From Gemmatimonadota bacterium (GTDB taxonomy: Bacteria > Gemmatimonadota > Gemmatimonadetes > Longimicrobiales > Gaopeijiaceae), in contig JAJCZZ010000064.1 in the NCBI GenBank assembly GCA_029262115.1, positions 1 to 64,000 of the forward strand: 64,000 nt of DNA, written 5' to 3'. Shown in pieces: positions 59,054-64,000 of this stretch. Every line of letters begins with the position of its first letter. Positions within the stretch are counted from its first letter, which is position 1. The notes beneath the pieces are model-generated. The model ran no database searches. It worked only from the letters and a program-made list of their open reading frames with translations, and had not been told where the DNA came from. A program made the position numbers and the translations under genes.

Positions 59054-62000
59054 TCACCGCCCGCCCCGCCGCGACGGCCGCGGAAACGGCGGCGGCGTCA
59101 CCGTCGGCATCGGATTCGCCTCGATCAGACGGAGCACCTCCGCCACCGCCCGCTCCAATTGGGGATCACGCCCCTCTGCCACCGACTTCGCGTCCAGTAG
59201 AACTTCAATGTCCGGCGGAACCCCCTCGTTCTCGGCCACCCAGCGGTTGTTGATGGGGTCGAACACGGCGTTGTCGGGAGCGGTCAGGGCGCCGCCATCC
59301 ACCAGCGGGTAGTGGACGGACGATTTGACCAGCCCGCCCCACGTGCGGGCGCCGATCAACGGGCCGACGTTCTGCTGGCGGAAGGCCCACGGGAAGTAGT
59401 CACCACCGGAGCCGGCCAATTCGTTGATGAGCAAGACCTTTGGGCCGAGGATCCCCTGAGGCAGCAGAATCGGCTTGCCGCCAGGTACCTCGTTAGTGAT
59501 GGCGGCCCGCAGATCCCGGGTCATGTAGTCGACCATGTAGTCGTCGAGGTTGCCGCCGCCGTTGAAGCGTTCGTCGATGACGGCGCCCTCTTTGTGCTGC
59601 TGGGCGAAGTAGTAGCGATCGAACGACACGACGCCGCTCCCGCCCGTGTTGGGGATCCACGCGTAGGCGACCCGGCCACCCGACAGTTCGTCCACCCGCC
59701 GGCGATTGTCCTCCACCCACGCCCGCTGGCGGAGCGCGGTCTCCGAGCGGATCGGCTCGACCGTGACGGTCCAACTTCCGTCCATGGATGGGCGGTCGTT
59801 GATGTGTAGCACGGTTTGCATGCCCGCCGTGCCGTCCAACGCCTCGTAGGGATCCCGGGCGGTCGTCAACTCCTGGCCGTTCACTCCGACCAGGTATTGG
59901 CCCTCTTCGACGTTCAGCCCCGGTCGGTCGAGCGGAGCCGACAGGCCGGGATTCCACGCCTCGAACGTGTAGATGCGGTCGATCCGCCAGCGGCCGGAGT
60001 CGGCCCCGTAGTCCGCGCCGAGCAGCCCGACCCGTACGGTGTCGACGGCGGGGAAGTCCCCGCCGAAGACGAAGGAGTGGCCCACGGACAGTTCGCCGTT
60101 CACCTGATCCAGGATGTAGTTGAGATCGGAGCGGTGCCGGACGTGCTGGACAAGCGGGCGGTACCGCTCCCGCACGGCGTTCCAGTCGTTGCCGTGCATG
60201 CCGGGGTCGTAGAAGAAGTCCCGCTCGTAGCGCCACGCCTCGTCGAACATCTGGTGCCACTCGGCCGTCCGGTCGAGCTGGGTGCGCAGGTCCACCTCGA
60301 GTCGGCCGGAGCCACCCTCCGGCGGACGGGCGGTCCCGACGACGTGCCAGTTGGGACCCGAGCGGTAGATGATCTTTTCGCGGTCATTCGACACGGACAC
60401 GCCGAAGACGCCGCGGGCGAACACCGACGACTCGCGCTCCTCCATGTCGAATTTGTTCAGCACGAGTCCAGGCGTATTCGCTACGCGCTCGAGAACAAAC
60501 ACGCTTCCCTTCGGCCCGGGAGCGGTCCCCACATAGTTCCGCACGGGCATCGGCAGAGCGATGATGCGTCGCTCCACTCCATCGAAGTCGATGCGGACGA
60601 CCTCGTCATCGTCGGATTCGGCATTCGCGTCCTCGCCACCCGGTCGGGCGCCATCACCCGTGCCGGCACGATCACCCGTTCCCGATTCGCCGCCTCCCGC
60701 TCCCGCTCCGTCTCCGCCGGCCCCTCCCTCGCTGCCATCGCCTTCCACCGGCTCCTCGTCGGATTCGAGAGGGAAGGGCGTCGGATCGTCGTCTCGCAGC
60801 ACCATGACATAGGCGCCGTAGGTCGGCGCGTTGGCGAGGATGGAGCTGGTGTTCGCCCACCCGGAGTTCAACGCGAGGTTGGTACTGGCCAGGAAGTAGA
60901 GGTGTCGACCATCGGCATCCCAGGAGGGACTGACCGCGTCCGCCATCTCGTCGGTCAGCGGTGTCGCGGCGCCCGTGTCCACGTTCCACGCGACCACGCG
61001 GTGGTAGTTGTTCGGGAAGGTCTTGCCGAACGCGAGCCACTTCGAGTCGGGCGACCAGGTGAGCCCCATGCCGCCACGTTCGATGTTCGTGCCGCCCGTG
61101 TCGGCGGTGCGTACCCGCCCACCCTCGACATCTACCACCCGAATGCGTACGTCGTCGTCGACGAACGCGATGTAGGCACCGTCGGGAGACCACGTGACTT
61201 CCCACGCGAAGACGGATTCGCCGATGTCGATCGTGCGCTCCTCGCCCATGCCGTCCTGCTCGGAGATCACGAGCTCGTAGCCGGCACCCCGGTCGCGGAA
61301 CCAGGCGATGTGCTGTCCGTCCGGTGCCCACACGGGCGAGCGGTCCGCGGCGCCGGAACTATGCGACAGGTTACGCGCGCTGCCGTTTTCGACCGGGACC
61401 GTGAAGATTTCGCCACGCGCTTCGAACAGCGCCCTTTGGCCCGTCGGGGATAGCGATGCGTTGGTGGCCCGCCGGCTCACGTCTTCCCACCGGGTCGCGG
61501 CCCACGGGAAGTCGCCGACGACATCGATGTCGATTCGCCGCGAGCGGCCGGACGCCGGATCGAGTTCGTGGATATAGCCGTCCTGCTCGAAGACGAGTGC
61601 GCCCTCGTGGCCGGACAGGTTCTTCACTTCTGCGCCGCTGAAGTTGGTGATCTGGCGCGTGGCGCCGGAAGCGACGTCGTACGACCAAACGTTGTACGCG
61701 AAGTCGCGATCGGACACGAAGTAGATGGTTCCGTCCATCCAGACGGGGTGCATGTCGGTGGTGCGGTCGTTCGGAAGCCGTACTTCGTCCAGGTCGTCGA
61801 GGTCCAGGATGGTCAGCGCGGTGTTCTGTCCGCCTCGGTAGTCCCGGAACTCCCAGTCCCACCGGGACACTCGGTCCACGACCATGCGGCGCCCGTCGGC
61901 TGAGTAGGAGGCGTTGTGCCCCCACGGTGCCGGAAGCAGGGTCGAGGGGCCGCCTTCGGGTGAGACCGTCCATAGCCGCTGATAGCCAGTCGGCGCCGTC

Positions 62001-62404
62001 TCTCGGGTGGACGAATAGAGGACACGTGAGCCGTCCGGCGTCCAGCCCCGCGCGAACGTCTGCGCCGGGTACCACGTCAGCCGGGTCGGCGAACCCCCTT
62101 CGGCGGACACGACGTACACGTTGTTCGTCCCGGACCGGTTGCTCGTGAACGTGATCCACCGCCCGTCCGGCGAGAAGTGTGGGTCGGCCTCGACAGCGGG
62201 AGTGCTGGTCAGCCGCAGCGCCCGTCCACCGGCGCGCGGCGCCACCCAGAGGTCCGCACCGTACGCGAACGCGACCTGCGAGTCGCTCAGCGTGGGCTGA
62301 CGGAGGAGACGGGTGCCCTGGGCGGACGCGGGGGAAGCCACCGCGAGGACGGTGGCAACAACGGCGGCCAGGGCGGACAGGGCACCTGCGAGACGACGGA
62401 CCAT
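59054..62404 (-). CDS. Secreted tricorn-like S41 protease with PD40 propeller (paralogue)
   Basis: 1116 residues from the ATG at 62404, which starts a Sec signal (VRRLAGALSALAAVVATVLAVA). It has the same order as 50443-53817: PD40 blades (FSPDGRWITFTSN, WTPDGSRVLYSS, WAPDGQHIAWFRD, WSPDGAYIAFV), core and PDZ-like region (LNVEEGQYLVGVNGQELTTA), and S41 domain with GELSVGHSFV (His near 773), ELAGSGGDYFPW (Ser near 996) and IDERFNGGGN. Residues about 540-600 form a striking acidic Gly/Glu/Asp insert, a feature also seen, with different sequence, in the paralogue. It probably degrades peptides in the periplasm. The C-terminus is Pro/Arg-rich. Confidence 0.92.
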   Translation of the reverse strand: MVRRLAGALSALAAVVATVLAVASPASAQGTRLLRQPTLSDSQVAFAYGADLWVAPRAGGRALRLTSTPAVEADPHFSPDGRWITFTSNRSGTNNVYVVSAEGGSPTRLTWYPAQTFARGWTPDGSRVLYSSTRETAPTGYQRLWTVSPEGGPSTLLPAPWGHNASYSADGRRMVVDRVSRWDWEFRDYRGGQNTALTILDLDDLDEVRLPNDRTTDMHPVWMDGTIYFVSDRDFAYNVWSYDVASGATRQITNFSGAEVKNLSGHEGALVFEQDGYIHELDPASGRSRRIDIDVVGDFPWAATRWEDVSRRATNASLSPTGQRALFEARGEIFTVPVENGSARNLSHSSGAADRSPVWAPDGQHIAWFRDRGAGYELVISEQDGMGEERTIDIGESVFAWEVTWSPDGAYIAFVDDDVRIRVVDVEGGRVRTADTGGTNIERGGMGLTWSPDSKWLAFGKTFPNNYHRVVAWNVDTGAATPLTDEMADAVSPSWDADGRHLYFLASTNLALNSGWANTSSILANAPTYGAYVMVLRDDDPTPFPLESDEEPVEGDGSEGGAGGDGAGAGGGESGTGDRAGTGDGARPGGEDANAESDDDEVVRIDFDGVERRIIALPMPVRNYVGTAPGPKGSVFVLERVANTPGLVLNKFDMEERESSVFARGVFGVSVSNDREKIIYRSGPNWHVVGTARPPEGGSGRLEVDLRTQLDRTAEWHQMFDEAWRYERDFFYDPGMHGNDWNAVRERYRPLVQHVRHRSDLNYILDQVNGELSVGHSFVFGGDFPAVDTVRVGLLGADYGADSGRWRIDRIYTFEAWNPGLSAPLDRPGLNVEEGQYLVGVNGQELTTARDPYEALDGTAGMQTVLHINDRPSMDGSWTVTVEPIRSETALRQRAWVEDNRRRVDELSGGRVAYAWIPNTGGSGVVSFDRYYFAQQHKEGAVIDERFNGGGNLDDYMVDYMTRDLRAAITNEVPGGKPILLPQGILGPKVLLINELAGSGGDYFPWAFRQQNVGPLIGARTWGGLVKSSVHYPLVDGGALTAPDNAVFDPINNRWVAENEGVPPDIEVLLDAKSVAEGRDPQLERAVAEVLRLIEANPMPTVTPPPFPRPSRRGGR

Positions 62405-62520
62405 GGAAGGACGGCTCCAGCGGGAGAAAACGGATCCGCCCCAACGTCCCTCCCGCCCGCATCCCCGCGCAAGGCGAGTCGGGTCCGCCGCGCTCACGTC
62501 GGCGCCTCCGACGTCCCTAC

Positions 62521-62632
62521 CGTGGGCGCGCCTCGTCGCGCCTACGCAGTTCCCCCGCAACGCGCTCGCCACCGGCCTCCCCGACGTGGGCACGTTCCGC
62601 CGCGCTATGCAGTTCCCCACGACGCGCTAGCC
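62521..62632. repeat. Two imperfect tandem units of about 65 bp
   Basis: The segment from 62521 (CGTGGGCGCGCCTCG, CTACGCAGTTCCCC, ACGCGCT) recurs from 62585 (CGTGGGCACGTTCCG, CTATGCAGTTCCCC, ACGCGCT). The spacer between the broken ilvE and the protease gene holds nothing else I can identify. Confidence 0.55.
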
Positions 62633-62675
62633 GCTGGACGCGGTGTGCCTCCCCGCGTGGCTATGCCCCGATGCC

Positions 62676-63615
62676 TCAGACCGAAGCAGGCTCCCGCGCG
62701 CGCACCACGTCCAGCCACCCGTGCGCGTCAGGGCGGCGGCCGCGGGCGATGTCCAGGTACGCCGCTTGTAGCGACTTCGTGAGGGGACCCGGCGCCCCTG
62801 ACCCGACCTGAACGCGGTCCACCGAACGCACCGGCGTCACCTCGGAGGCCGTCCCGGCGAAGAAGATCTCCTCCGCCTGGTACAGCATCTCCCGGGGGAT
62901 CACACACTCCCGAGTCGGTATCCCCATATCCGATGCCAGTTTGAGGACGCAGTCACGCGTGATTCCCGCCAGCAGCGTCCCATCGAGTTGTGGGGTCAGC
63001 AGTTCGCCCTCGACCACGAGGAAGATGTTCTGGCCGCTGCCTTCGCTGACCGTTCCGCCGACGGCCAGGGCAATCGCCTCCTGAAAGCCGTTCGCCACCG
63101 CTTCCATCTTGATGAGTTGGCTGTTGATGTAGTTGCCACCCGCCTTCGCCAGGCTCGGGTGCGTGTTCGGCGCCGGTCGGAACCACGACGACACGCAGGC
63201 GTCCACACCTTGGTCCAGCGCCTCGGCGCCCAGGTACCGTCCCCAGGGCCAGGAGATGAGGAAGGTCTGGATCGGGCTCGGCTTCGGGTTCAGGCCGAGG
63301 GCTCCGACGCCTCGAAAGGAGATACCCCTCAGAGACACCGTTCCTCCGAATCAATTCGTGACACGCCTCGACCAACTCGTCCGGCTCGTATGCCAGATCC
63401 ATCTTGTAGATGCGGCACGAGGTGAAGAACCGTCGGATGTGATCGCCCAGGCGCATGGCGGCGGGTCCGTCCTCGGTCTCGTAGAAGCGGATCCCTTCGA
63501 AGATCGACGACCCGTAGTGGAGCGCGTGCGTCATCACGTGCACGTTGGCTTCCGCCCACGGGACGAAGGCGCCGTCGTTCCAGATCCATTCAGTGCTCGG
63601 TATCGCAGTGTTCAT
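62676..63615 (-). pseudogene. ilvE: Branched-chain amino acid aminotransferase, disrupted by a deletion
   Basis: The N-terminal part from the ATG at 63615 (MNTAIPSTEWIWNDGAFVPW, HALHYGSSIFEGIRFYETED) and the C-terminal part in another frame (FRGVGALGLNPKPSPIQTFL, AKAGGNYINSQL with the PLP Lys, SEGSGQNIFLV, AGTASEVTPVRSVD) together make a full IlvE of normal length. At 63318 the sequence goes directly from EGYL to FRGVG. Relatives have about four extra residues here (the RPL(I/V) motif), so 11 bases appear missing, which shifts the frame. Either the gene is dead or the lesion is an assembly error. A leader peptide and attenuator precede it. Confidence 0.85.
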
Positions 63616-63641
63616 ACTCGTTCTGATTCCAGGGAGAAATG

Positions 63642-63673
63642 AAAAAGCGCCGAACCCGGATGGGCGCGGCGCT
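63642..63673 (-). terminator. Attenuator-type intrinsic terminator in the ilvE leader
   Basis: On the minus strand, AGCGCCG pairs with CGGCGCT (inner CCC/GGG stem, ATCC loop) and is followed directly by five T residues. It lies between the leader-peptide stop (63701) and the ilvE ATG (63615), the position of an attenuator. Confidence 0.75.
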
Positions 63674-63700
63674 CGGCGGCGGCTGTCGAGGTCTCGCTCG

Positions 63701-63793
63701 TCAGCGTTCTCCGGGGCACCGGCCACCGTCGCTCCCGAGTACGATGCTCGGGAGACCGATAAGGACCAGGCCGCGGCGGAGAAGTGAGTTCAT
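63701..63793 (-). CDS. Leader peptide rich in Leu/Val/Ile (ilvE attenuation)
   Basis: A 30-residue peptide from the ATG at 63793: MNSLLRRG, then LVLIGLPSIVL, then GSDGGRCPGER. Eight of the eleven residues in positions 9-19 are branched-chain amino acids, and the whole peptide has eleven. GGGAAGG lies immediately before the ATG. A perfect 8-bp hairpin (63732-63739 with 63747-63754) overlaps the key codons, and a terminator lies 28 bases past the stop. This is the layout of ilv/leu transcription attenuation, where ribosome stalling at scarce Leu/Val/Ile codons would favour read-through. Longer frames start at 63898 without support. Confidence 0.75.
   Translation of the reverse strand: MNSLLRRGLVLIGLPSIVLGSDGGRCPGER
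63732..63754 (-). ncRNA. Pause-type hairpin in the ilvE leader RNA
   Basis: CTCCCGAG (63732-63739) and CTCGGGAG (63747-63754) form a perfect 8-bp stem with a 7-base loop, inside the leader-peptide codons for LPSIVLG. In attenuators such a hairpin pauses RNA polymerase until the ribosome arrives. Confidence 0.6.
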
Positions 63794-64000
63794 CCTTCCC
63801 AGGTACGGCCGCCGCAGCGCGACGTCAAGGAGCTCGCTGCCGCGGCGGTTTGAGCGGGGTCCTGGTGGGACGGTCGCGCCGAAGTCGGCGCCGGTCACGG
63901 GTGCCGTGATCGAGGCGGGTGGGAAGCGTCCCGAGCGCTACGTCGGGAGCCGACGATTCAGCCTAGATTCGCGACGGTTCTGCAACCGCGTGAAAAGGTT

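Follow-up and report, generated by a model that had tools for sequence, protein, structure and literature searches.

Ribosome-mediated attenuators of branched-chain operons are represented by the enterobacterial ilvGMEDA, ilvBN and leuABCD leaders. In Actinobacteria, candidate or tested leaders for branched-chain amino acids (BCAA) precede ilvB (PMC1262725, PMC11857589), and the ilvBNC attenuator was tested by mutation in Corynebacterium glutamicum (PMC11857589, PMC1262725). Staphylococcus and Listeria are likewise reported to have BCAA leaders (PMC5794164, PMC5864092). The ilvD and ilvB motifs, located before BCAA genes, are suspected riboswitches (PMC8632094). The literature searched, which excluded most subscription journals, contained nothing relevant on BCAA leaders in Gemmatimonadetes or Gemmatimonas or upstream of ilvE. 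The initial annotation of the locus discussed here, which knew of no such leader for ilvE in this kind of bacterium, agrees with this result, and the status "undescribed" is provisional because of the limited reach of the search.

The window, i.e., the whole stretch of 64,000 nucleotides analysed, covers bases 1-64000 of contig C64, which is 78,097 bases long and belongs to a Gemmatimonadota draft genome (G000; 5.45 Mb, 110 contigs, rated 95.7% complete). On its minus strand a leader precedes a solitary ilvE (Table 1). This element is predicted to be a member of a known attenuator kind and one of a group in the same bacterial family; judged by its sequence, it probably serves as a ribosome-mediated transcription attenuator responding to charged Leu/Ile/Val tRNA.

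Table 1. Positions of the ilvE leader elements and gene parts in the window.
Feature	Position	Strand	Remarks
Weak promoter-like pair TTGACG-17-TACCTG	63800..63828	minus	by sequence; absent from stricter scan; low confidence
Leader peptide ORF	63701..63793	minus	30 codons, MNSLLRRGLVLIGLPSIVLGSDGGRCPGER; core aligned in G017 leader
Putative control codons CTG GTC CTT ATC GGT CTC CCG AGC ATC GTA CTC	63737..63769	minus	8/11 Leu/Ile/Val
1:2 (protector/pause) hairpin CTCCCGAG-CATCGTA-CTCGGGAG	63732..63754	minus	-13.1 kcal/mol; G017 folds a hairpin over matching codons
Strand 2, putative antiterminator	63716..63736	minus	duplex with strand 3, -25.6 kcal/mol; 5-nt overlap with 3' arm of 1:2 hairpin
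Strand 3, putative antiterminator	63661..63678	minus	overlaps terminator 5' arm; best partner for own strand 2 among 15 leaders
3:4 intrinsic terminator	63642..63674	minus	T5 tail 63646-63642; -21.6 kcal/mol
ilvE 5' part, residues 1-99	63319..63615	minus	in frame with ATG
ilvE 3' part	62676..63338	minus	other frame, about 11 nt short at join compared with relatives; TIGR01122 247.7 bits, above cut-off

The I/L/V-rich stretch of the leader peptide, LVLIGLPSIVL, stands ahead of a BCAA transaminase gene. Of the short ORFs of the window, about 1,540 when those of 12-60 aa on both strands are counted, this leader ORF alone encodes at least eight I/L/V within 11 residues. Among the 14 terminator-like sites of the window, only that of ilvE is preceded within 200 nt by such an ORF, and a chance origin of this pairing of ORF and terminator is unlikely. 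The 1:2 hairpin is a perfect 8-bp stem spanning the codons LPSIVLG, with a stability reached by none of 500 mononucleotide shuffles. By itself it is not rare, since the window contains 27 perfect 8-bp hairpins; the ilvE leader is singled out by the combination of its parts. The G+C-rich terminator, GAGCGCCGCGCCC-ATCC-GGGTTCGGCGC followed by T5 (-21.6 kcal/mol, matched by 0/500 shuffles), lies between the leader ORF and the gene and ends 26 nt before the ilvE ATG (63615). The 30-codon peptide, the perfect pause hairpin over its control codons and the terminator with T5, all named in the initial annotation, were recovered at these positions.

The same features could be a chance combination of an ordinary terminator-like hairpin with a random hydrophobic ORF in G+C-rich intergenic DNA, the ilvE promoter being located after the hairpin. 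The abundance of perfect hairpins in the window favours this explanation, but the rarity of the ORF-terminator combination argues against it, as does the position of the terminator between ilvE and a divergent cold-shock-like gene. As this upstream neighbour is divergent, no upstream gene on the minus strand needs a terminator there.

Positions of the ilvE gene were obtained for 121 genomes of the family, 59 near relatives and 394 genomes of the class. In most of the upstream regions examined, ilvE stands behind either ilvC (in the operon leuA-leuB-...-ilvC-ilvE) or a gene of the SDR type, and most of these regions, including those of about 30 other Gemmatimonadota ilvE genes, contain neither a terminator nor an I/L/V leader before ilvE. 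A solitary ilvE with a strong terminator and a leader ORF ahead is present in four genomes of four genera (the window genome, G016, G017 and G002). The three other peptides are MTRTVIRPPGIVFGIIPDLVSCKGC... (G016), MTGNSLNNTIRLIIGLPGVLVVGRASGEG... (G017) and MGHGVFGVGLVLGARLRARWQ (G002); per 11 residues, I/L/V number 8 in the window peptide, 6 in G016, 8 in G017 and 5 in G002, the weakest case among the four. In G016 and G002 the longest ILV-bearing frames begin at a far-upstream TTG, and nearer GTG/ATG starts were taken by eye.

The G017 peptide core, RLIIGLPGVLVVG, matches the window peptide: the score of the aligned core (G017 (R)LIIGLPGVLVVG, window GLVLIGLPSIVLG) was reached by 6 of 2000 double shuffles. 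The G016 and G002 peptides gave no significant alignment with that of the window. In local alignments of the DNA, the window leader matches those of G017 (8/300 shuffles) and G016 (2/300) best within 63765-63732, on the control codons and the hairpin. Lack of peptide conservation, which the initial annotation had named as a finding that would count against the leader, is not what the relatives display: the G017 core is aligned, and G016 and G002 carry an I/L/V leader with a terminator. That three further genera carry this layout at ilvE, one of them with a peptide core that aligns, speaks against a chance combination. The absence of an ilvE leader from G001, the nearest genome and the only other one assigned to the same genus, speaks for it; G021 likewise has none. 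On the sequences compared, conservation of the ilvE leader is limited.

Several other upstream regions were considered. A stretch of G001 encoding LIERALPIL, with a weak hairpin beneath it, was taken by eye for a possible degenerate leader and then dropped, its DNA similarity being at chance level. Terminators before ilvE in L055, L060 and L070 were rejected as attenuators; they follow apparent tRNA genes and have no leader. In Acidobacteriota (L041, L044-L047, L050-L052) the presumed ATG of ilvE follows a TATAAT-like box by only a few bases, so that the ilvE mRNAs of these bacteria may be leaderless.

The initial annotation called the attenuator complete without naming an antiterminator. An antiterminator pairing is available: the 2:3 duplex shares bases with the 1:2 hairpin as well as with the terminator arm, so that the 2:3 and 1:2 pairings are mutually exclusive. 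In all four ilvE leaders the stretch just past the control codons can pair with the terminator 5' arm (GGAGGGGGTCG:CGGCCCTCTCC in G016, GGGAGAGGG:CCCTCTCCC in G017, GGGGCCCGTCTGC:GTGGACGGGCCCT in G002), the window duplex being interrupted and longer than the others. Comparison with shuffled versions of strand 2 gave p values of 0.07 for the window, 0.02 for G016, 0.17 for G017 and <0.01 for G002; for the window leader alone this is only suggestive. When strand 2 and strand 3 partners were swapped among 15 leaders, the observed total energy was reached in 48 of 5000 permutations. The window strand 2 prefers its own, divergent strand 3 over the strand 3 of all 14 other leaders, as would be expected if both strands had changed together, and such matched strands count against a chance combination.

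With Leu, Ile and Val tRNAs charged, the ribosome would run through the codons for LVLIGLPSIVL, both the 1:2 hairpin and the terminator would form, and transcription would stop near 63642. With a ribosome stalled on the control codons, strand 2 would be available to strand 3 while strand 4 has yet to be synthesised; the 2:3 pairing would block the terminator, and ilvE would be transcribed. In folding of a partial transcript without strand 4, 10 of the 13 nt of the terminator 5' arm are paired upstream. With strand 4 present, the terminator wins at equilibrium at every ribosome stall position, so the outcome of the switch would be decided kinetically, as in known attenuators. Equilibrium folding with a stalled ribosome was rejected as a test of the ON and OFF states, which it did not separate; partial transcripts alone separate them.

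A leader of another kind, i.e., a riboswitch or a translation-level switch sequestering the Shine-Dalgarno sequence, with an incidental peptide, would have a precedent in the suspected riboswitches before BCAA genes elsewhere (ilvD and ilvB motifs; PMC8632094). This is very improbable: covariance models of Rfam leaders, T-boxes and riboswitches found nothing within 60000-64000 at thresholds up to E = 1, no aptamer-like block is conserved across the four ilvE leaders, and the element ends in an intrinsic terminator, not in a Shine-Dalgarno hairpin.

On the plus strand, the start of the divergent cold-shock-like gene lies near 64,150 (locus L117), and the window leader therefore needs its own promoter in between. 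A strict scan upstream of the leader found no good sigma-70 promoter. The weak promoter-like pair of Table 1, if real, sets the transcription start at about the leader ATG. The leader ORF has no well-spaced Shine-Dalgarno sequence (GGAAGG abuts the ATG). Its translation might be that of a leaderless mRNA. The promoter and transcription start are the weakest link of the attenuator reading, and in this respect the "complete" attenuator of the initial annotation lacks a convincing part. Lack of a promoter for a leader RNA is also what a chance combination would give; weighed with the evidence against it presented above, that explanation is improbable.

Operons of leuA in the same family commonly carry Leu/Ile-rich leaders with terminators, and G016 and G002 each have both a leuA leader and an ilvE leader. 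The leuA leader peptides include MTSILQSVTGLIIELSGFRVLGGRGE... (G016), ...IELLTVLRGLLLIGGRGE... (G002), ...GLFSELLGLLLLSGGRGG... (G107) and ...GFLLLGSLRLIGLLGE... (G118), and each has a terminator that belongs to the GGGCCCTCTC type or resembles it closely. Their promoters, in the three loci looked at (L112, L118 and L135), consist of TTGACA and a TATA-type -10. An upstream ORF with at least seven I/L/V in 11 residues accompanies 6 of 189 terminators in the comparison loci, five of the six being located ahead of ilvE or leuA. The leuA leaders (e.g., L141, L142, L143, L148, L150, L165) resemble that of the window in the I/L-rich leader, strand 2, the terminator and the distances. They share the GGGCCCTCTC-type strand 3 with the ilvE leaders of G016, G017 and G002, whereas strand 3 and the terminator of the window differ.

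R1, a sequence-structure covariance model, was built from the leaders of relatives. RNAalifold kept only four pairs of its alignment because two terminator variants are mixed in it. In twelve genomes the ten strongest R1 matches are all located before leuA or ilvE, nearly all of them being training sequences. R1 gave no match at the window site, which does not fit the GGGAGAGGG / GGGCCCTCTC scaffold, and no site of convincing score anywhere in G000. Since R1 misses it, the window element has the plan and the peptide in common with the class, but not the terminator sequence.

Two side observations were made in this comparison. An R1 match with GGGAGAGGG / GGGCCCTCTCC strands (E 2e-6) is located before an aspartokinase gene in G103 (L193, C75, about 1410-1640); its leader frame, read by eye, contains ...VIPVTTKTRT... 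and could possibly belong to a threonine-sensing attenuator on the leuA/ilvE scaffold. In genus g12 of the same family, a near-invariant short ORF, MGRVAWEGKKWGLVAINSGFDLVRLLIFAIILTHWH, precedes leuA (L152-L155, L157, L159-L163), with no recognisable terminator between the two.

Both parts of the window ilvE belong to ilvE type I (TIGR01122, PRK06606). Where a match has a named organism, the best ones (66% and 64%, C-terminal part) come from Gemmatimonadetes MAGs, which places the window in the Gemmatimonadota. Around 63319-63338 the conserved residues are 11 nt closer together than they are in relatives, a shortening that breaks the frame once. Both halves are otherwise well conserved, so any decay of the gene would be very young. 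The lesion was initially annotated as recent or artificial, which fits a single break between well-conserved halves; in the sequence as given, the missing bases may reflect either a true deletion or an assembly error. The ORF following ilvE (59054-62620, minus strand, 1188 aa) looks by eye like a tricorn-type protease with beta-propeller repeats, and no functional link between it and ilvE was seen.

A second, full-length ilvE without a leader is located on contig C55, and the window ilvE is probably redundant. In G000, ilvC and ilvD have no match, the leuA-type match is no better than a distant paralogue, and no ilvB scores over the curated cut-off. As far as a draft assembly permits such a reading, the lack of recognisable ilvB, ilvC, ilvD and leuA suggests auxotrophy for branched-chain amino acids. 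By the same tests G017 is without ilvB, ilvC and leuA, retaining ilvD and an intact ilvE; G016 and G002 possess the whole set (ilvB, ilvC, ilvD, leuA).

The window element could be a decaying remnant, i.e., an attenuator real in the ancestor and now free of selection, the gene being inactivated and its work performed by the second ilvE. This explanation is compatible with attenuation in the ancestor and differs on whether the unit works now. It draws on the broken frame, the intact copy on C55, the loss of biosynthetic genes from a genome rated 95.7% complete, the lack of a good promoter and the diverged terminator. It is rather unlikely, given the perfect 1:2 hairpin, the intact terminator, the match between strand 2 and its own strand 3 and the good conservation of both gene halves outside the break; the lesion itself may also be an error of draft-genome assembly. 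Against a working attenuator stand the lack of a good promoter and of a well-spaced Shine-Dalgarno sequence, the diverged terminator, the absence of the leader from G001, the broken gene, equilibrium folding and the p of 0.07.

A wider proposal can be made tentatively, with a little less than even confidence: Gemmatimonadota may possess an undescribed, lineage-wide attenuator scaffold (GGGAGAGGG / GGGCCCTCTCC / GGAGGGCCC and a U-run) whose control codons vary with the gene (Leu/Ile for leuA, Leu/Val/Ile for solitary ilvE, apparently Thr for the aspartokinase gene of L193) and which is kept at ilvE even where the rest of BCAA synthesis seems lost. If this is true, lineages without BCAA synthesis would sense starvation for amino acids that could be made only from imported 2-oxo acids.

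The window element extends predicted codon-sensing transcription attenuation to a phylum without such a leader in the literature searched, and to ilvE as a stand-alone target. If the leaders are functional, auxotrophic-looking genomes keep a BCAA-starvation switch on the transaminase, and G017, with its intact ilvE, is a ready test case. A switch kept there would suggest that the transaminase is used for making amino acids from imported 2-oxo acids, not for degradation alone.

An attenuator with ilvE as the first gene could also be present in an Anaerolineae MAG (L074, 2548-2721), where the leader MHRQIIVNLLSLVLVLIIMSAS is followed by a strong terminator. It belongs to another phylum (Chloroflexota) and has another sequence, ilvB follows ilvE in an ilvE-ilvB operon, and its origin is probably independent. 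From the enterobacterial ilvGMEDA, ilvBN and leuABCD leaders the window element differs in having ilvE as the first and only gene, in its G+C-rich sequence, in a weaker codon run (8/11) and in its regulation being predicted. The two have in common the clustered Leu/Ile/Val codons, the overlapping 1:2, 2:3 and 3:4 pairings and a U-run terminator before the first structural gene, a likeness of layout without a claim of sequence kinship. The leaders of Corynebacterium ilvBNC and the candidate ilvB leaders of Actinobacteria (PMC11857589, PMC1262725) have ilvB and not ilvE as target and belong to another phylum with another sequence, the window element being a prediction. They resemble it in the Leu/Val/Ile peptide, in the succession of antiantiterminator, antiterminator and terminator hairpins, and in the G+C-rich genome.
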